This document shows positions 2,022-20,610 of a stretch of DNA of 24,216 nucleotides, one piece after another. The position numbers and the translations under genes are program-made. Every line of letters begins with the position of its first letter. Position 1 is the first letter of the stretch. The notes below the pieces were generated by a model, which saw nothing but the letters and a program-made list of their open reading frames with translations, was not told the DNA's origin and made no database searches. The stretch comes from a virus: IMG/VR virus record IMGVR_UViG_3300044701_002185, positions 1-24,216 of that record. One strand, written 5' to 3'.

Positions 2022-5000
2022 ATGACGCTTCCCATTCGTCCTGACCTGACGTTTGGTTCGACCCCGGCCCTGTCGGGTGCGTTAACTGGACGCCTGCCGT
2101 TCGGCGGACCCCCGCCTGCGCCATACACACCGGAGGGATGGGAAGAGGAACGCAAGCGGAGACTGCAAGAGGCCATCGCATTGGGCCTGCCGATTCGCGA
2201 TGTAAAACAGATGCAGTTGCCGGAGGTCAAGATTGAGGCCCCGCGTCCAGCCCTGCCACAGTTGGCGAATGTGTTGGCGCGGGAGATGTATCCGGAGCTC
2301 GAAGGAACGACCCCGACTCCGACTAGCCCGTTAGAGCGTTACAGTGTGGGTGGGGTGCTGGCGGATGTGGCGGCTCAGCCTATCGCGGCCCTGATGTCAA
2401 CCTCTGGTCGCATCGGCGAGGGGATTCAGCGGACGCTTGGGTTCGAGGAGGCGGCTCGGCGGACAAAGGAGCGGACGCAGGTTTTGAACGAAGCCTTGGC
2501 TCCGACCACGGGGCTTGGCGTGGCGGCTCGCGTCCCCGCCGAGTTGCTCACCAGTGCCGCGCCATATGTGGCGGCTGGCCCCGGTGCCGCTGGGCTTCTG
2601 CGCTCGGCGGCATTGACTGGTATTGAGTCTCGGGCGGAGGAAGGGTCTACGGTCAAGGCATTGGCCGACCTGACCGAGTCTGAAACCCTACGCCGTATTG
2701 CACAAAGCCCCTACAAGACGGCGGCAGACATCGGCCTCGACTTGGCTCTTAACGCCGCGCCTGAGGTGATTGGTGGGGCATTGCGTGGGACGCGGACGGC
2801 GGCACGAGCGGCAGAGCCGGGGTTCCTTCCGGCGGCGAGCGCGGTCGCCCGGCAGGTCGGCCAGAACATCGCCGATGTCCGTCCGGGTGCGGCAGTCAGG
2901 GCGTTGGGGACCGTTGTTCGTCAGGACCCTATTTCGGCGCTGACAGCGGCGGCAACGCTGGGTAGTGAAGCTGTTGCACCGGGTCTTGGGACGCTGGCGG
3001 CGGCTATCCCCGCGACAACGCGTGCCCCGTTTGCGGACCGGCTGTTCTCTCGGCTTGGTCGCGCCATTGAGGCCGCGCCGTTCGAGAAGGGAACGCCTCA
3101 GCAGTGGGCGGCCGCGCTGTCCAAGAACGTGGCGGCGGGCGAGCGGGAGTTCACCGGAATTGACGAGTTCCTGCGGTCCTCGCAGGCCAAGACGCTGACC
3201 AAGGCCGAGGTGCGTCAGGCATTTGAGCAGAACCGGGTTCGACTAGGCGAAAGTGTTGCCAGTCCAGAAACGTGGATGGCACGGAAAGAGGCGGAAGATG
3301 TAGTAGCAAGGGCTGATACGGCGCTGAATAATCGCATTGAAGAAGTGGCGAATCAGCTCGCCGAAGAAAACGGTTCGTATGCGCGGTTGATAGAGCAGGC
3401 GCAGGAGATGCGGAATGCTCGCAATATGCCGGAAGCTGAGAAGTTTGAGCGGATGGCAAGGACGTTGATGTCAACGTATCGAGATGAGGCACGGCAGTTG
3501 CTTTCCGAAACTGGCGAGATGGACCAGTTGAATTACGCTGTTCGGCAAGCGTCTGAAGAGGCTGGGAAAATCCCCAGACCGACATACGGGCGATACACTC
3601 AGCCCGGTAAACTCGACAACTATCGCGAGGTTGTACTGACGCTGGAGGGTCAGGAGGTCGGTCAAGCTCCGTATCGGTCGTCGCACTGGTCGATTGACAA
3701 CCCGCTTCTGCACGTTCGGATGTCGGACCGCACCCTGCCTGACGGACAGAAAATGCTGTTTGTCGAGGAAATCCAGAGCGACTGGCATCAGGAAGGAAAA
3801 AAGCGTGGGTATATTCCAAGTCTTGAGAATGTTAAAAGCCAGCTTACTGATGTGGAGAAACGGCTTGCTGAACTAAATAGTTCTAGGGGTGACTTTAGTG
3901 AACAGCGGCGGGTTGAATACATCAACTTGTTTGAAAGGCAACGTCAGCTGAGAGACCAGTTGCGTGTATCTGGCGTTAAAAATGCTCCATTCAAAAAGAC
4001 TCCCGAGTGGACCGAGTTGGCCCTGAAGCGCGTCATCGACGAGGCGGTACAGGGTGGTTACGACCGCGTAGTACTGGTGACCGGCGAGCAGGCGGCTGAG
4101 AACTTTGACTTGTCACGGCAAATCAAACAGCTTGACTGGTACACCAATGACGGTGGCAAGACATTTGCCTTGTCGGATGGTTCCACGCGCATTGCCGACA
4201 ATGTTTCTGCGGCACAGCTTCCGGATTACGTCGGCAAGGAGGTCGCGCAAAAGATTGTTGACTTTCAGGGCGCACGCCCAGCGACGTTTGCCACAAGAGA
4301 AGGCGAGAGAGGCGGCACGCTTCGCGGCATTGACCTGAAGGTTGGCGGCGAGGGGATGCGGTCGTTCTACGACAAGCTCGTCCCCAACACCCTGCGCGAC
4401 CTTGGAAAGTCGATGGGTCTGAGGTTTGAGTTCGAGCCGGTCAGTATCATCGAAGGTCGCGGGCAAAACCTGTCGTTCCGCATCACCCCGGAGGCGCGTG
4501 ACCGCGTGCTGTCTGAAGGGATGCGGTTGTATGATATCGGCGGCGCGACGGGCGAGGCGCTCCGCCAAATCGTTCAGCGCCCGGCTTTGGCGACGGGCGT
4601 GGGCGCGGCGGTTGGCGCGGCGCAGTCGCCTGAGGACCGCCTTGGTGGTGCGGCGGTTGGGGCGTTGGCCGGGGCTGGGATTGCTGGGGCGGTGGTGTCT
4701 GGGAAGCAGTTGCTCAAGGCGCGTCGGGCGCTGATTGAGGCGGGCCTGCCGACGGAACTCGACCGGGCATATGCCTTGGCGAAGGGGAGCATCGACTTCA
4801 CCGGGCAGGTCGGCCGTCAAATTGCCCAGCGCGGCCGTGAAGGGTTCAAGCGTGTCTTCGAGAAGGCCATCGATGGGCTGGCGGAAATCGACCGGCTGTC
4901 GGCGCGGGCTGAGGCGCGTGGAATGGCTCCCGAGCGGTCGGCGGCGACAGGTCTTAATATGGCGCTGTCCTCGCAGGCCACGGCGGCGCGGGCACTGCGT

Positions 5001-7739
5001 GAGGGCGTTGGGTTAGAGCAGGGCGGCATCATCGACCCGGAGACGCTGGAGATTGTCGCGCCATCGTTGGAGCGTGTCTTTCAGCCGCTTGGCAATAGCC
5101 CCATCAAGAATGAACAGGGGATGACCTATGCGGTCGCTCTGCGTCGCCTTGGGCGCTACGAGCGGGCGGTAGCGGACTTGGCAGACTGGGAGACACGGGC
5201 GGCCAGCGGGGCTGGGCGTGTCGGACAGCGTCCGGTATCTACGGCGACGATGCCATCTGGGGCCAAGCGAGCTACTCGCCTTAAGGACCTGATTGGGAGT
5301 GCCGGCGAAACCATTCCGACAACCTCTGGTCTGGGAGACAGGCCAAATCCGCTACAGGTATATGGCGGTGATGAGGCAATGCTTGAGGCAGACCGGGCTA
5401 TCGTCGAGGCGTTCGGTCAGAAGCCGGAGTTTGTGGAGTTCGCGAACGGTTTGCGGCAGTACACGGATGGCTTGGCAAACTATGCGGTCAAGACGGGGCT
5501 GTGGACGTCAGAGATGGCTCAGCGGTTCAAGGATTCCGACGCGCTGTATGTGCCGTTCAAGCGACTGATTGAGGCGAACACGGCGAAGCCCCGGATGGGG
5601 ATGCGTGGCCGTCCAATGCCGGGGCAGGTCACGCCGGGGGTCCAGCGGTTCAAGGGGTCGGACCTGATGATTGGGAATCCGGCCGAGGCGCTGGCCGAAT
5701 ATACGGCGTCGCTTATCCGGCGGGCAGATGCCTACCGGGTGGGCACGATGCTGATGGACACCGTGGAGGCGCTCGGCGAAGAGGGCGCTGGCATCCTCAC
5801 CAAGATTGACGCGACGGATGCGCGAGTGAAGGCGGCGGCGGTGGCAAATGCCGAGGCGGCGTATCGTGGGATGGGCTTGCCGGAGGATGAGGCTGAGGCG
5901 TTGGCTGATGTATTCGCCCGCCTGTCCACCAAGAACGAGGTTATCTGGCGCAACACGCCGAACGGCAAGGAGTACTTCCTCGTCAACGACCCTGCCCTGC
6001 TCAATGCGCTCTCAACGCTAAATGTGCAGGACGAGGGCGCAGTCAAGGCGATTGTGGCGGTCTTTGGTCCCCTCAAGCGACTGGCCACGGCGTTCGCCAC
6101 AGGGTATGCCCCGGCCTTCTGGCTTGGCACAAACCTCCCGCGTGACATACAGATGGGCCTTTTGCAGACCAGCGGTATCCGTCCCGGCGACGTGGCTGGT
6201 GGTATGGCGGAGGCGCTCAAGTCCATCTTCGGTCGGTCGGCAGAGGTCGAAGCGCTCGGTCGGGCTGGCGCTGGGCAGGTCTCGCAGTACGGCGGGACGC
6301 TCTCCCCGGCGGCGGTGGCTCGGCAGATTGCGCCGACGACTGGTGGTGAGCAGGCTCTCGGAACACTTGAGCAGTACATCGGTGCGCCGCTCGCGGCAAT
6401 GGAGCGGGTCGGCCGGGCCTCGGAACTGCCGATGCGCTTGGCGGCGGCACGGGCGGCTCGGCGTCAGGGGGCGCAGGCTGGTGCGACCGAGGCGGGACAG
6501 CGGGCCTTGGCGGCTCGGCAGTTCGCGCAGGCCACGGTGGACTTCCGGCGGCGCAGTGGGTACGCACTGGACCGGATGTTTGAGCAGACCGTTCCGTACT
6601 TTGGCGCGGCCAAGAAGGGCTTGGGGATGTTCCTCCGCACGGCCGCTCGCAACCCCAAGCGAGTGGGCGCGGCGGTTGGACTCGTCGGGCTGGCGGTGGC
6701 GATGGAAGATGTTCTGCTCGGCGAGGGACAGGAGCGGGTCGAGGCGCTTGACCGTCCGTCCTACGAGCGGGCGAAGTATTTGCGAGTCGGTAATACCAAG
6801 GTGGCACTCCCGCAGGAGTTGGCGGTCTTCGCCTCGGCATTCCGCGTTGGACTGGCCCAGCTTCGACAGGACGACCCGTATGTGTACGAGCAGTTTAAAC
6901 AGTCGCTGGAGAACCTCCTCCCACCTGTAGTCAGCGATGTCACGCGCGGACGATACCTGCCGTTCCCGGTGCTGGGGCAGTTGGAAGAGATTGCTCAGAA
7001 CCGCTCGGTCTTTACAGGCCGCCCGATTGTGCCGCAGGGGATGGAGCGACGGATGCCGTCCGAGCGGCGGTACGAGACCACGGCCCCGACGTTTGATGTG
7101 TTGGCCGGAGCGGCGCGGGCACTCGGAGCAGAAGAGGCGTCGCCGTTGCAGGCCGAATATCTGGTGCGCGGTTTGACTGGGCGGTTTACCCCGGCTATTA
7201 CAGCGGTGACGGATATTCCAGCGCAGGCGATTATGGGCGAAGAGGCTCGGCCACAGGTGCCTCAGCCAGTAATGCGTCAGCCGCTGAACCCGCTGGCCGC
7301 ATTCCGCGTTCAGCCAACCCGTGCCACGGAAAGCGAGCGCGAGTACTACGACCTGCGCTCGGCTTATCAGCAGGCGCGGGCGACGGTCACGGCCCTCGAC
7401 CGGCAGTACGAGCAGGCGCAGGCGGCTGGTGATGAGGGTGCGATGCGCCGACTGGAAGCTCGGAGCGCTGAGCTACAGCAAGACCCTCTCTTCGCGCAGG
7501 CAAGCCGGGATGTCGCGGCTGGGACTGGGGCGTCCGACGTGTTGAACTGGGAAAAGCAGGTGCAGGACCGACTGGACGACATTCAGGCGGACATAGACTA
7601 CGTCGAATCCGAGTACGCGGCCAAGCGAATGACTGGCGAGCGAGCCCGGAAACTCATCGACGAGTACAACACGGAGCGTCGGACGCTGATGCGCGAAGCG
7701 GCGGCCGGGCTTCGGTCAAGAATGGGGACCCCACGATGA
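2022..7739 (+). CDS. giant internal-virion / polyvalent-type protein, probable DNA-ejection protein (1905 aa)
   Basis: One uninterrupted frame of 1905 codons. Visible regions: Ala-rich, membrane-like helices (about 130-330); a domain at about 545-810 with the conserved-looking segments YRSSHW, VEEIQSDWHQEGKKRGY (about 580), APFKKTPEWTELALKR, and GIDLKVGGEGMRSFYDK (about 769), a set found in very large phage 'polyvalent' proteins; a Gly/Ala hydrophobic stretch at about 855-900; an LPD38-like region from about 1130 to 1570 (SDALYVPFKRL, GYAPAFWLGTNLPRD, EQTVPYFGAAKKGLGMF, then a hydrophobic helix ending AMEDVLL); and a charged coiled coil over the last 130 residues. Proteins of this build are packaged in the virion and enter the cell with the DNA (family knowledge). 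Residues about 405-660 are encoded by visibly AT-richer DNA than the rest, suggesting an inserted module. No RNA polymerase, transglycosylase or methylase motif is evident. The last four bases overlap the next gene (ATGA). Confidence 0.75.
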   Translation: MTLPIRPDLTFGSTPALSGALTGRLPFGGPPPAPYTPEGWEEERKRRLQEAIALGLPIRDVKQMQLPEVKIEAPRPALPQLANVLAREMYPELEGTTPTPTSPLERYSVGGVLADVAAQPIAALMSTSGRIGEGIQRTLGFEEAARRTKERTQVLNEALAPTTGLGVAARVPAELLTSAAPYVAAGPGAAGLLRSAALTGIESRAEEGSTVKALADLTESETLRRIAQSPYKTAADIGLDLALNAAPEVIGGALRGTRTAARAAEPGFLPAASAVARQVGQNIADVRPGAAVRALGTVVRQDPISALTAAATLGSEAVAPGLGTLAAAIPATTRAPFADRLFSRLGRAIEAAPFEKGTPQQWAAALSKNVAAGEREFTGIDEFLRSSQAKTLTKAEVRQAFEQNRVRLGESVASPETWMARKEAEDVVARADTALNNRIEEVANQLAEENGSYARLIEQAQEMRNARNMPEAEKFERMARTLMSTYRDEARQLLSETGEMDQLNYAVRQASEEAGKIPRPTYGRYTQPGKLDNYREVVLTLEGQEVGQAPYRSSHWSIDNPLLHVRMSDRTLPDGQKMLFVEEIQSDWHQEGKKRGYIPSLENVKSQLTDVEKRLAELNSSRGDFSEQRRVEYINLFERQRQLRDQLRVSGVKNAPFKKTPEWTELALKRVIDEAVQGGYDRVVLVTGEQAAENFDLSRQIKQLDWYTNDGGKTFALSDGSTRIADNVSAAQLPDYVGKEVAQKIVDFQGARPATFATREGERGGTLRGIDLKVGGEGMRSFYDKLVPNTLRDLGKSMGLRFEFEPVSIIEGRGQNLSFRITPEARDRVLSEGMRLYDIGGATGEALRQIVQRPALATGVGAAVGAAQSPEDRLGGAAVGALAGAGIAGAVVSGKQLLKARRALIEAGLPTELDRAYALAKGSIDFTGQVGRQIAQRGREGFKRVFEKAIDGLAEIDRLSARAEARGMAPERSAATGLNMALSSQATAARALREGVGLEQGGIIDPETLEIVAPSLERVFQPLGNSPIKNEQGMTYAVALRRLGRYERAVADLADWETRAASGAGRVGQRPVSTATMPSGAKRATRLKDLIGSAGETIPTTSGLGDRPNPLQVYGGDEAMLEADRAIVEAFGQKPEFVEFANGLRQYTDGLANYAVKTGLWTSEMAQRFKDSDALYVPFKRLIEANTAKPRMGMRGRPMPGQVTPGVQRFKGSDLMIGNPAEALAEYTASLIRRADAYRVGTMLMDTVEALGEEGAGILTKIDATDARVKAAAVANAEAAYRGMGLPEDEAEALADVFARLSTKNEVIWRNTPNGKEYFLVNDPALLNALSTLNVQDEGAVKAIVAVFGPLKRLATAFATGYAPAFWLGTNLPRDIQMGLLQTSGIRPGDVAGGMAEALKSIFGRSAEVEALGRAGAGQVSQYGGTLSPAAVARQIAPTTGGEQALGTLEQYIGAPLAAMERVGRASELPMRLAAARAARRQGAQAGATEAGQRALAARQFAQATVDFRRRSGYALDRMFEQTVPYFGAAKKGLGMFLRTAARNPKRVGAAVGLVGLAVAMEDVLLGEGQERVEALDRPSYERAKYLRVGNTKVALPQELAVFASAFRVGLAQLRQDDPYVYEQFKQSLENLLPPVVSDVTRGRYLPFPVLGQLEEIAQNRSVFTGRPIVPQGMERRMPSERRYETTAPTFDVLAGAARALGAEEASPLQAEYLVRGLTGRFTPAITAVTDIPAQAIMGEEARPQVPQPVMRQPLNPLAAFRVQPTRATESEREYYDLRSAYQQARATVTALDRQYEQAQAAGDEGAMRRLEARSAELQQDPLFAQASRDVAAGTGASDVLNWEKQVQDRLDDIQADIDYVESEYAAKRMTGERARKLIDEYNTERRTLMREAAAGLRSRMGTPR

Positions 7740-11334: not shown

Positions 11335-11556
11335 ATGGCGACCTGCCGCCGGGACCGCAAGGAGGCTTGCCCGGACCGCTACGAGGCGGTCCGGCAGGGC
11401 CGTTGCTGGTTTAGCTGGCAGGCCAAGGGGTGGTTTATCATCGACCACGGCGTGCCGACCCTCTACGAGCACTGCCGCTGGTGCGGGGGCAGTCTCCCGG
11501 TGTTGGCCGATGTCATCCTACGGGCGTTAACCGAGGCGGAAGACGATGGCGACTAG
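11335..11556 (+). CDS. small Cys-rich protein (73 aa)
   Basis: Not recognised. The protein has five cysteines: C4, C12, C24, and the pair C47/C50 in HCRWCGGSL, with a His just before that pair. This suggests a small zinc site. The tail is acidic (ALTEAEDDGD). It starts 9 bases after the metallophosphoesterase stop with only a weak ribosome site (GTGGG) and overlaps the next gene by 11 bases, so it is probably cotranscribed. Its reality rests on the tight spacing and the ordered Cys pattern. Confidence 0.55.
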   Translation: MATCRRDRKEACPDRYEAVRQGRCWFSWQAKGWFIIDHGVPTLYEHCRWCGGSLPVLADVILRALTEAEDDGD

Positions 11557-11839
11557 ACGGCGACGGACGGCCAACGTCCTGACGGGCAAGTCCGCCTCGG
11601 TGGCGATTCAGCGCAACGGGCTGTCGATTGAGGTGGGCGATGTCCCAGCCGTCGATGCCGCGCTGGTCGCCAAGTGCCTGCTCGACGCCATTCGAGGGCT
11701 TCAGGCGGCGGGCTACGACGAGCTGGTGGTCGATGCCGGGGCCCTGCACGGGGGCGTGATTGAGGTCCCTGAGGACATCGACGGCGACGACTTCGCCCTG
11801 CCCCCAGAAGCCAAGCGGCGCATCGGCTTCACGGCCTAA
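11546..11839 (+). CDS. hypothetical phage protein (97 aa)
   Basis: Not recognised. It has a basic start (MATRRRRTANVL) followed by a mixed alpha/beta-looking body (SVAIQRNGLSIEVGDVPAVDAALVAKCLLDAIRGL) and an acidic stretch near the end (PEDIDGDD). There is no transmembrane segment and no Cys pattern. The 11-base overlap with the previous gene supports coupled translation. It is the last gene of the 9780-11839 unit, followed within 20 bases by a GC-rich hairpin. Confidence 0.55.
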   Translation: MATRRRRTANVLTGKSASVAIQRNGLSIEVGDVPAVDAALVAKCLLDAIRGLQAAGYDELVVDAGALHGGVIEVPEDIDGDDFALPPEAKRRIGFTA

Positions 11840-13985: not shown

Positions 13986-14488
13986 GGTGCGACTTCCAGC
14001 GATGCCGGGCGGTCTTGGTCGAGCGCATCGACCGGCTGGGGCGGGTGACGTATACCTGCCCCGGCTGTACCCGGCGCAAGTCAGGCGTTTGCCAGACGTG
14101 TCCGAGTCCGGTCGAGGGCGAGGTGGGGCGGGCGTTCTATTGTGCGCCGTGCAAGAAGCGTCGGCGGCGGGTCTATGTGATGAAGTGGCAACGCAACAAT
14201 CTCGACAAGGTCGCGGCTGGGGCGCGGCGTCGCCGCTGGTTGTTGAAGTACGGGCGGCGTCCGCCGAAGGAGAAGATGACCTTGAAGGAGGCAGGGAAGC
14301 TGGGAGGGAAGAAGGGCTCAGCGGCGCGGATTGCGTCGATAGGGCCCGAGCGGGTGCGAGAGATTGCACTGAAGGCCAACGCGGCCCGATGGGCCAAACA
14401 CCGGAGACAGTTATGTCAGACCGAATCATCCTCAGTAGCGGGGAAGTCGCCATCGCCAACACCCTTGCCGCCATCCGGCAAGGCGTGA
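13982..14488 (+). CDS. zinc-ribbon protein with basic helical C-terminus (168 aa)
   Basis: GTG start overlapping the previous stop (GTGA). The N-terminal 60 residues carry paired cysteines (C3, C8; TCPGCTRR; VCQTCPSP; YCAPCKKRRRR), enough for two zinc ribbons. A strongly basic middle follows (about 55-95). Then comes 'LKEAGKLGGKKGSAARI...GPERVREIALKANAARW', a helical repeat known from many phage and bacterial small DNA-associated proteins (G-G-x-x-x-A-A...R-x-x-I-A-x-x-A-x-x-A-R-W). Nucleic-acid binding is likely. The last 76 bases overlap the start of the nuclease gene in another frame. An overlapping open frame covering 13957-14412 is judged non-coding. Confidence 0.6.
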   Translation: MRCDFQRCRAVLVERIDRLGRVTYTCPGCTRRKSGVCQTCPSPVEGEVGRAFYCAPCKKRRRRVYVMKWQRNNLDKVAAGARRRRWLLKYGRRPPKEKMTLKEAGKLGGKKGSAARIASIGPERVREIALKANAARWAKHRRQLCQTESSSVAGKSPSPTPLPPSGKA

Positions 14489-14898
14489 ACCGCGAGGCAG
14501 GCATCAAGAATCAGAAGGCGGGCCAGCAGGACGCCATCACGACCGAGGTGGTCGGGGTACTGGGCGAGTTCGCCTTCGCCAAGTGGGCGAATGTCTTCCC
14601 TGACCTGACCACTCATCTTCGACGGGGCTCATTCGACGCCACGTTCCGAGGCTGGAATGTGGATGTCAAGTCCACCCGAAACCCGAACGGCGACCTGTGG
14701 GTGGACGCTCGGCGAGACAAGCTCCCGGACCTGTACGTCTTGGTCCACGTCGAGTACGCGGCCTGCACGATGTTGGGCTGGTGCTGGTCCGCCGAGGTGC
14801 CGACCCGCAACTATGCGCCTGAGGGCCGTGCGCCGCAGATTGCTCACCGGGACTTAGATGCAATGCGCTGGATGTGGGAGATTGACGAGCGGCGCTAA
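14413..14898 (+). CDS. PD-(D/E)XK-type nuclease-like protein (161 aa)
   Basis: Start at the ATG at 14413 with GGAG 6 bases upstream. Key features are a helix with G-E52 (VGVLGEFAFAKWANV), an Asp at about 75 (GSFDATF) and the D84-V-K86 pair in WNVDVKSTRN, followed by beta strands (LWVDARRDKLPDLYVLVHV). This E...D...D-x-K arrangement is that of PD-(D/E)XK nucleases, a fold used by resolvases, restriction enzymes and phage recombination nucleases. The substrate cannot be told. The product could act in recombination or repair with the SSB-like protein and the other nucleases nearby. It is the last gene before the large non-coding region. Confidence 0.7.
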   Translation: MSDRIILSSGEVAIANTLAAIRQGVNREAGIKNQKAGQQDAITTEVVGVLGEFAFAKWANVFPDLTTHLRRGSFDATFRGWNVDVKSTRNPNGDLWVDARRDKLPDLYVLVHVEYAACTMLGWCWSAEVPTRNYAPEGRAPQIAHRDLDAMRWMWEIDERR

Positions 14899-14906
14899 GG
14901 TGACGC

Positions 14907-14935
14907 TTGACGGCATCGCCTCACGGGGTTAGCTT
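14907..14935 (+). promoter_or_regulatory. candidate promoter for the non-coding RNA region
   Basis: TTGACG (14907-14912), 17 bases, TAGCTT (14930-14935), beginning 8 bases after the nuclease stop. The start would be near 14942. The -35 and spacing match the promoters at 9725 and 20684 (minus strand), though the -10 is weak (3 of 6). Confidence 0.45.
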
Positions 14936-14941
14936 CGTGGG

Positions 14942-15354
14942 GCGGTGTCGTCAGAAGCATCGCACTTGCAGTCACAACTGAAGGCCCCCGTAAGTATCTC
15001 CTGCTGACTCCCGACTAGGGGTGCCAGCCTTCTGACAGGAGAGAACGCGGGGGCCAGTTGTTTGTCTGCGGGCCTACTCTCGGTCTCCCGCAGGGCAGAT
15101 GAACCGACACCTGCCGTTCAATCCTGACCGTGCCAGCGTCACCCGATAAACAAATCCACGCTCTGTCAGCCTACAACGTGGTCGGTCGTCTTGGGTGTAT
15201 TGCTGGGAGCTCCACGGTGGCATAGCACCACCGATAGGTCACCCGTCGAGGGACTTCGCCAGACACCCGCTGGCAAGCGCAGACGGCCCCAGTGCTAGCC
15301 TTCGGTCCTGACGCTGTGACTGCCCGTAGACGACCGGGTATGGCTCGGGTATGC
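14942..15354 (+). ncRNA. candidate large structured non-coding RNA
   Basis: About 550 bases (14899-15454) hold no credible gene, yet contain nested exact complementarity. Domain 1: ACAACT (14974-14979) plus GGCCCCCG (14983-14990) pair with CGGGGGCC (15048-15055) plus AGTTGT (15056-15061), with a 3-base bulge. Inside it TCTCCTG (14997-15003) pairs with CAGGAGA (15036-15042) and carries a further hairpin capped by GACTA (15013-15017). Domain 2: CTGCGGG (15066-15072) with CCCGCAG (15087-15093). Domain 3: CAGCGTCA (15134-15141) with TGACGCTG (15309-15316), enclosing GGTCGTCT (15184) with AGACGGCC (15281), GGGTGT (15193) with ACACCC (15263), CTGG (15203) with CCAG (15259), and CGGTGG (15215) with CCACCG (15228). 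Nested arms in correct order indicate RNA folding. The ends are approximate. A replication origin is the main alternative. I do not recognise a known RNA family. Confidence 0.6.
15335..15353 (+). repeat. direct repeat CGGGTATG x2
   Basis: CGGGTATG occurs at 15335-15342 and 15346-15353, an 11-base period, just after the last stem of the non-coding RNA candidate. Either copy of GGGTA could pair with TGCCC at 15321-15325. It could be a protein site (iteron-like) or a pair of alternative RNA pairings. Confidence 0.4.
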
Positions 15355-15391
15355 CCATCACACAACACTACGCACATCGCAAAACTCACTC

Positions 15392-15420
15392 TTGCGTGAC
15401 GCACAAGACGCCGCTATACT
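15392..15420 (+). promoter_or_regulatory. promoter with palindrome for the second HTH unit
   Basis: TTGCGT (15392-15397), 17 bases, TATACT (15415-15420), with a start near 15427. The -35 lies within the palindrome TGCGT-G-ACGCA (15393-15403), a candidate operator for the HTH protein encoded immediately downstream. Confidence 0.6.
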
Positions 15421-15436
15421 CGTCGTCACACCACTT

Positions 15437-15450
15437 CACACCACAGGGGG
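15437..15450 (+). promoter_or_regulatory. leader box copy (CACACCACAGGGGG)
   Basis: GGGGG ends 4 bases before the ATG at 15455, within the predicted leader of the 15392 promoter. Confidence 0.55.
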
Positions 15451-15454
15451 AAGT

Positions 15455-15694
15455 ATGTCAGACTCCGCTCCGGCGGACGTTTCGTCGTCCACGAAGGTCA
15501 TTCACCCGCTCGTGCAGGATGCGATTCGGGTGCTGATGCAGGAAGGCGACCGTTCGACGGCACCCGCCAAGCTCCGGCTGGCGATGCAGATTGGCTATAA
15601 CATCTACTCCATCGGGCACTGGGAAGCGGGGCGGCGTCAGCCCTGCCCGGATGCGCTTACGCGGATGGAAGCGGTCGTGGCGGGGCGTCGCTGA
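15455..15694 (+). CDS. small XRE-type helix-turn-helix protein (79 aa)
   Basis: The ATG at 15455 follows the leader box; the upstream open frame is ignored because it precedes the promoter. The C-terminal half reads LRLAMQIGYNIYSIGHWEAG then RRQPCPDALTRMEAVV. This matches the second half of an XRE/Cro HTH, where 'x-S-x-x-x-W-E-x-G-x-R-x-P' is the recognition helix and the loop that follows. The first 35 residues are a Ser/Ala-rich tail and a helix. No dimerisation domain is evident. It sits first in a long plus-strand unit, with a palindrome on its own -35, so autoregulation is plausible. Its stop overlaps the exonuclease start (TGATG). Confidence 0.68.
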   Translation: MSDSAPADVSSSTKVIHPLVQDAIRVLMQEGDRSTAPAKLRLAMQIGYNIYSIGHWEAGRRQPCPDALTRMEAVVAGRR

Positions 15695-19722: not shown

Positions 19723-20610
19723 TCAGGCCTCCACGCTGGACACCACCGGGGCTGACTGCTCCCCGGTGACGTAGTCGGCGGCTCGCTGGGCCAAGCTCGC
19801 GGCGCGGGCGAGCATATCCGGGTGCTGGCGGCAGGCCTTCGCCCAGTGCCGAAGGTAGGCGGCGCTCTGGCTCACCTGCTCGAATCCGAAACGCCCGGAC
19901 AGGAAGGACGCGCCCAGCTCGGCGACGAGCTCCTCGAAGGCGTAGTCAGCGGACCCGAACCGGGCCGGGGTGAGGCGCTTCAGGCGCTTGTCCGCCCCCG
20001 TCCAGTGGGTGAGCTCGTGGAACAGCGTCGCATAGTAGCTTTCGCGGTCGCGGAAGGTCTCGGCGTCCGGCATCCGGATAACGTCCAGCGAGGGGATGTA
20101 GCAGGCCCCGGCGCTCCCGTGGGTGATATCGGCCCCGGTCCCCCGGACCATCTCGTCCGCGTCCTGCAAGGCCTCAAAGGCGGTCCGGGTCGGCTCGGTG
20201 TGCCGCCCCTTCAGCGCCGCGAGTGCGCCCGGCTCCATCTCGTCGAGTTGTTCCACGTTGAACACTCGGAACATCCGGGCGAAGAAGTAGCTGGACGGCT
20301 CCCCGTCCTCGTCATCCCCCGACGCCTTCTTGGTGGCCTTGGACATAAAAAACACCGGGGTGGACTTCTCCCCCTTCCGGACCACGCACTTGGCCTCCAG
20401 CGCCTGCTTGAACGTGACCCAGCCGTGGGACTTGTAGGCCATCCCGGCGAAGAGCAGGGCGATGACGTTGCCACCGGAGTAGGGGCGACCCGTCAGGGCG
20501 TTGTGCGGCCCGAGCCCCGACCACGGCCGGACCCACGGCGCGTTCCCCTGCTCCATCTCGCGGATGACCTGCTCGAAGACTTCAGCGTAGACTGCGGCGT
20601 TGCTTGCCAT
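19723..20610 (-). CDS. ArdC-like antirestriction protein: ssDNA-binding N-domain plus zincin-type metallopeptidase domain (295 aa)
   Basis: The N-terminal domain (about 1-125) has the ArdC/DUF1738 pattern: VFEQVIREMEQGNAPWVRPW, NALTGRPYSGGNVIALLF, GWVTFKQALEAK, VRKGEKSTPVFFMSK, FRVFNVEQ. The C-terminal domain has the zinc site H198-E-L-T-H202 (YYATLFHELTHWTGADKRL), with E231 (FEELVAELGASFL) as the third ligand. Plasmid and phage ArdC proteins protect incoming DNA from restriction, the N-domain binding ssDNA (family knowledge). Here the gene is first in a leftward unit with its own leader box and promoter, in line with early expression. The key residues are intact, so it should be active. It may be packaged or made at once on entry. 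Confidence 0.88.
   Translation of the reverse strand: MASNAAVYAEVFEQVIREMEQGNAPWVRPWSGLGPHNALTGRPYSGGNVIALLFAGMAYKSHGWVTFKQALEAKCVVRKGEKSTPVFFMSKATKKASGDDEDGEPSSYFFARMFRVFNVEQLDEMEPGALAALKGRHTEPTRTAFEALQDADEMVRGTGADITHGSAGACYIPSLDVIRMPDAETFRDRESYYATLFHELTHWTGADKRLKRLTPARFGSADYAFEELVAELGASFLSGRFGFEQVSQSAAYLRHWAKACRQHPDMLARAASLAQRAADYVTGEQSAPVVSSVEA

Follow-up and report, generated by a model that had tools for sequence, protein, structure and literature searches.

The question raised by this locus is what is encoded in a gap of about 550 bases in the window, by which we mean the whole 24,216-nucleotide stretch of viral DNA analysed here (IMG/VR record IMGVR_UViG_3300044701_002185). To our knowledge, phage RNAs of large size and elaborate structure form a very small set (GOLLD and ROOL), and their functions are still open. 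A first-pass annotation had proposed that the gap, placed at 14899–15454, holds a large structured noncoding RNA of an undescribed type with three domains. The gap bounds were correct, no conserved open reading frame (ORF) was present within them, and the complementary arms that had been listed occurred in the sequence. Comparison with related phages supported the candidate as a real large structured noncoding RNA, and the compelling support came from covariation, including that in five predicted pseudoknots which had not been described as such. The overall claim thus stood, but the domain borders and several stems did not, and the gap contains two separable modules, a 5' module and a core, rather than one three-domain RNA (Table 1).

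Table 1. Positions of the RNA modules, their pairings and the flanking features in the window
Feature	Position	Strand	Details
DUF5843 gene	14413–14898		upstream neighbour; its stop opens the gap, and the next gene starts at 15455
Promoter-like pair TTGACG-17-TAGCTT	14907–14935	+	TTGACG 14907–14912, 17-base spacer, TAGCTT 14930–14935; begins 8 bases past the upstream stop; predicted transcription start ~14941
5' RNA module	14941–15066	+	hairpin h1, stems h2a, h2b, h3 and h4, PK0, U-rich tail
Hairpin h1	14942–14963	+	GCGGUG/CAUCGC; loop gives the 5' strand of PK0; covariation
PK0	14950–14957 / 15029–15036	+	GUCAGAAG / CUUCUGAC; covariation in alignment A2
Internal loop AGUA/GAA	14993–14996 / 15043–15045	+	near-invariant AGTA and GAA columns in A2
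Core RNA	15066–15353	+	288 nt; helices HA, HB, HC, HD, HE, HF, HG and HH, pseudoknots PK1–PK4; alignment A1
PK1	15081–15085 / 15126–15130	+	CGGUC / GACCG; loop of HA; 100% paired; CGGUC/GACCG or CGGUU/AACCG
PK2	15223–15228 / 15292–15297	+	hairpin loop of HF; 99.2% paired; seven versions, each perfectly paired
PK3	15184–15190 / 15329–15335	+	GGUCGUC / GACGACC; 99.4% paired
PK4	15263–15269 / 15346–15352	+	hairpin loop of HG with the 3' end; 86.4% paired; compensatory changes in 5 of 7 pairs
Promoter-like pair TTGCGT-17-TATACT	15392–15420	+	that of the next gene, outside the RNA; also precedes the homologue of that gene in L002, L005, L006, L007 and L011

Relatives were first found by protein-anchored searches, with flanking genes 64–89% identical at the protein level. 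The identity of the gap to that of the window was 85% in L002–L004 and 76–79% in L011, L007 and L005, and in L005 the core DNA (79%) was more conserved than the flanking genes (68–72%). We then searched with a DNA pattern of two short motifs taken from the first relatives, which matched 29 contigs, and a looser form returned the same 29. With a 3' pattern and later searches added, at least 36 IMG/VR contigs, the window included, were found to carry the core; since all relatives came from IMG/VR and were found via motifs or genes taken from the earliest members, more distant types were likely missed. No credible core match was obtained in INPHARED, in PLSDB (nucleotide search) or in the GTDB species genomes (pattern scan). 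The sole GTDB pattern match (L041) was a chance match with the wrong spacing and no surrounding core, and matches to a 5'-module pattern (L046–L048, L050 and L051) were discarded as AT-rich chance matches. One copy of the core was present per contig; in some contigs that copy was reported in two pieces. Among 20 other records, many of them fragments, the exonuclease of the window was found in none and a relative of its terminase in one, so the RNA does not seem to be confined to one close lineage; empty sites sought in these records via exonuclease and terminase relatives were not obtained. A conserved 97-aa phage protein with no Pfam match, encoded at 11546–11839 of the window and in relatives, marks the neighbourhood of most of the RNAs. 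Its gene was present on 42 contigs, and within the available sequence the core was found on 33 of these and was undetectable on four contigs of 23–37 kb.

We aligned 22 cores by sequence only using MAFFT (alignment A1), and the structure was drawn on the window by inspecting relatives. The results showed that 92.7% of 1707 helix cells were paired, compared with 32–47% when the 3' strands were slid by 1–3 columns, a control somewhat favourable to a structure that had been drawn with the relatives in view. Compensatory changes on both sides occurred in 51 of 78 pairs, and none of 500 shuffles, uncorrected for relatedness, reached any of five measures. Pseudoknot PK4 crosses both PK2 and PK3, and the 5' strand of PK3 occurred as GGTCGTC, GGTCGTT, GGTGGTG, GGTCATC and GGTCGTG. 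On this model, the four pseudoknots probably hold the core in one compact globule. Stem HG was paired in 51% of cells in A1 because its surroundings vary in length, and inspection of single sequences revealed it in a shifted register. A fold from RNAalifold alone was rejected, as pseudoknots lie outside its model and the nested structure that it gave was misleading. Two relatives, L006 and L038, carry a type-B core in which the 3' half is largely replaced. Equivalents of HC (CGCTCGT/ACGAGCG in L006), HE (CCAAG/CTTGG), PK1, PK3 (GGGGCAG/CTGCCCC) and PK4 (TGACTA/TAGTCA) were kept by inspection, and a PK2 counterpart sought by eye in both was not found. The 8-bp stem that had been proposed to close the third domain (CAGCGTCA at 15134–15141 with TGACGCTG at 15309–15316) was not conserved in relatives; its CCAGCG pairs with 15201–15206 instead, and 15309–15316 belongs to a variable region. 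No terminator-like tail was found past the core, with a run of four T in only one of 26, and the 3' end of the core is therefore undefined.

For the 5' module, a second alignment of 15 sequences (A2) showed 90.3% of cells paired, compared with 45–54% in the slid controls, and compensatory change in 18 of 38 pairs. All eight pairs of PK0 formed in 12 of the 15 sequences, in many different letter versions, and the remaining three paired when shifted by one column. Free folding of 14941–15066 returned the same nested stems as drawn, with a fold z-score of −3.25. The AGUA/GAA internal loop appears to resemble the E-loop (sarcin-ricin) motif. The stretch after the GC stem was rich in U (57% T against a background of 18%), part of it pairing in h2a, and the GC stem and the U-rich stretch together look like a terminator or attenuator.

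Both promoter-like pairs named in the first-pass annotation were present. Promoter-like sites were positionally conserved in the relatives, where TTGACN or TTGCGN with TAnnnT stood about 35–37 bases before h1, and a strict scan placed a promoter pair upstream of 11 of 26 cores, compared with 4.3 in shuffles. These sites bear on a stem of 14 bp with one bulge that had been assigned to the first domain. Its left arm (about 14910–14925, partner about 14936–14950) falls inside the promoter, and by inspection similar complementarity was limited to the window and the relative that is 85% identical to it. Since the promoter-like pairs sit in register before h1 in relatives, this left arm is probably promoter DNA that is not transcribed.

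Compensatory change in the homologous gaps was massive, its intermediates were G-U and not A-C, and no reading frame was conserved. In paired columns, G-U cells outnumbered A-C cells by 92 to 28 in the core and by 30 to 8 in the 5' module, indicating that the RNA of the + strand is what folds. Stop codons stood in changing frames and no frame was open across all relatives; long minus-strand ORFs, probably spurious, span the core in some of them. Comparison of folding energy with shuffled sequences gave a z-score of −3.78 for the whole gap, but energy proved a poor witness: the reverse complement of the gap scored −3.06, a coding control −2.48 and the core alone −0.74. Because these three scores fail to discriminate, energy alone is not evidence here, and the score of the core, despite overwhelming covariation, shows that energy z-scores can miss ornate RNAs.

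We searched the window and its relatives against Rfam 15. At gathering thresholds there were no matches in the window, and a permissive scan of the region gave at best 24.9 of 105 bits, for a eukaryotic miRNA model on a simple hairpin; all of its hits, eukaryotic miRNA models driven by hairpins and the like, were far below threshold. In the relatives only tRNA genes scored above threshold, and ARAGORN called no tRNA or tmRNA in the window. The proposal of an undescribed RNA type thus agreed with the absence of a credible match to any Rfam 15 family. The GOLLD model (RF02032) matched none of nine records up to E=10 and was absent from the cmscan lists; the ROOL model (RF03087) matched none of nine records in a search without a responding positive control, and the all-family cmscan also listed no ROOL. 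The RNA was not filed as a member of GOLLD or ROOL because neither model matches. As judged from sequence, it is a new RNA family within the broad kind of large ornate phage RNAs; it may have been described elsewhere earlier. ROOL is likewise phage-borne, with a complex predicted structure that includes pseudoknots and a function that is unknown (PMC12286853); compared with this RNA it is longer (659 nt for env-120; 574-position model).

The arrangement of the two modules varied between phages. In the window the core directly follows the 5' module, and in others an ORF lies between them: an N6/N4 DNA methylase (L017 and L038), a DUF5843-like gene (L039 and L049) or another long ORF, a C5 methylase by sequence (L014). 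By inspection, the linker of L037 and L040 holds a tRNA-like sequence (T-arm GGTTCGATTCC with matching acceptor strands) that was not called by ARAGORN. In L073, L074 and L084, around 6300–6450, a 5' module without a nearby core stands directly before a different ORF, which in L073 starts MNWIRVAVAIGDDPD; the module of L074 and L084 is divergent and has its own PK0 complementarity (GGGAAC/GTTCCC). Conversely, in L019 the core occurs by itself; by inspection it has a promoter-like pair of its own there (TTGCGG-16-TATCTT), and it faces a convergent gene. The core is oriented in the same way in L085 and L086. The idea that the two modules form a single RNA and cannot be separated was dropped, given the 5' module alone in L073, L074 and L084 and the core alone in L019. 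The genes before and after the core were unrelated between phages; those on its 3' side were the 15455 gene or genes for a C5 methylase, a PD-(D/E)XK-like protein or, in type B only, an HNH protein. This small HNH protein (PF01844 above cut-off; L006:4855–5196) immediately follows each type-B core, the surroundings of which otherwise differ. In two relatives, a tRNA gene begins no more than about 150 bases past the core (L011:6038–6108 and L057:9901–9971); tRNA genes close by have also been reported for GOLLD (PMC12286853) and ROOL.

On balance, we think it probable that a noncoding RNA of a new family, transcribed independently and acting in trans, is encoded in the gap. Its promoter, sigma70-like, would drive the 5' module, a hairpin and a long stem locked by PK0, and in the window the core, which follows directly, would be transcribed with it as one RNA. 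The terminator-like 5' module may set how much transcription enters the core or an interposed gene. The RNA would act in trans during infection in a structural, ligand-binding or protein-binding role, possibly self-assembling, as proposed for GOLLD and ROOL. An autonomous trans-acting RNA is preferred to a leader because in the L019 group the core has a promoter-like site to itself and is convergent with its neighbour. Further in favour are the covariation and G-U bias of both modules, the promoter-like sites in register, the position of the core between different genes, the higher conservation of the L005 core than of its flanking genes, and the type-B relatives, which keep the architecture with largely different sequence. 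Counted against it are the lack of a terminator-like tail past the core, the 5' module without a nearby core in three phages and the phages of the group without a detectable core.

The main rival is control in cis, in which the 5' module would serve as a leader for transcription attenuation or antitermination, and the core would be a regulatory UTR of the operon, sensing a ligand, a protein or the state of infection. We consider it unlikely as an account of the whole element, though still a serious contender, and the 5' module is a likelier candidate for a cis role than the core is. The GC stem and U-rich tail of the 5' module fit such a role, and the module stands directly before ORFs in L017, L038, L039, L049 and L073. 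Structured phage RNAs of the HK022 put type act in cis on transcription elongation (PMC9378689). The likeness is to the 5' module only, as a structured phage RNA, and any effect on polymerase here would be hypothetical; its pseudoknot, probable E-loop and terminator-like tail set the 5' module apart from those RNAs. For the core, cis control is favoured by a start about 10–20 bases past the stop of an ORF in L014, L017, L018, L038 and L039. A leader role is possible in L005, L007, L042, L006 and L038, since the start of an ORF is there no more than a few tens of bases away from the core. However, the flanking genes of different phages are unrelated, several phages have a separate promoter-like site for the next gene, and a core of 288 nt with four interlocked pseudoknots is large for a leader. 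In L019, moreover, no downstream gene can be the cis target of the core, because the neighbouring gene converges on it.

A further reading, which we hold to be doubtful, is that the core is a catalytic or self-assembling RNA machine whose function is shared with none of the known classes, the methylase and nuclease neighbours marking a locus of counter-defence or genome takeover.

Nuclease genes also raise the idea of a mobile ribozyme-like element, an intron or a retro or homing element in which a catalytic RNA carries or recruits them. The HNH gene after both type-B copies, the PD-(D/E)XK-like ORF on the 3' side of the core in L005 and L007, the ORFs between the modules and the differing insertion sites are consistent with it. 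HEARO, the omega RNA of IscB (RF02033), is likewise a structured RNA beside an HNH gene, a likeness confined here to the type-B copies; in contrast to it, there was no Rfam match, and the HNH protein is small (113 aa) and absent from type A. Against mobility, no Rfam intron or ribozyme model matched the window or its relatives, and no catalytic signature was recognised. The element is intergenic, lies after intact stop codons behind its own promoter-like site and interrupts no gene in the window. It is present once per contig, and nuclease genes are missing from most copies, including that of the window. We therefore regard a mobile ribozyme as quite improbable.

Another reading is a GOLLD RNA at high divergence, which the shared layout favours. 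GOLLD has a conserved 3' region, a less conserved 5' region and a variable linker that may hold a tRNA (PMC12286853), and the phage-borne RNA described here has a 5' module, a variable linker (with an ORF or tRNA-like sequence in some) and a conserved 3' core, a likeness of plan only and not proof of kinship. The tRNA genes near the core in L011 and L057 and the tRNA-like linker of L037 and L040 point the same way, and GOLLD, also a large and ornate phage RNA, has pseudoknots and loop-loop contacts as well (PMC12286853). On the other side, RF02032 found nothing in the nine records, the core has 288 nt against the 416 positions of that model, and genes for a DNA methylase or a DUF5843 protein can occupy the linker here. 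A further difference is the set of four pseudoknots in the core, of which PK4 crosses PK2 and PK3. A highly diverged GOLLD RNA is accordingly very improbable.

An explanation at the DNA level, such as an origin of replication, or by a small gene that escaped recognition is hardly credible: the inverted repeats of the gap and the minus-strand ORFs of some relatives would suit it, but the G-U bias singles out one strand, no frame is open in all relatives, a promoter-like site lies ahead of the element, and pseudoknot covariation, unexpected for a cruciform or a coding sequence, already contradicts it.

The trans-acting RNA that we favour would add an apparently unrelated family to the large phage RNAs, with a core small enough for structure determination and mutational analysis. 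Base-pair-level predictions are available for five pseudoknots, and types A and B are alike in architecture with the sequence largely replaced. Some natural forms have the 5' module and others lack it, so that what ornate phage RNAs do becomes more directly testable. Elsewhere in the window, 19723–20610 on the minus strand encodes an ArdC-type anti-restriction protein (PF08401 and PF18818), and a single ORF of 1905 aa (2022–7739, + strand) covers close to one quarter of the whole stretch.
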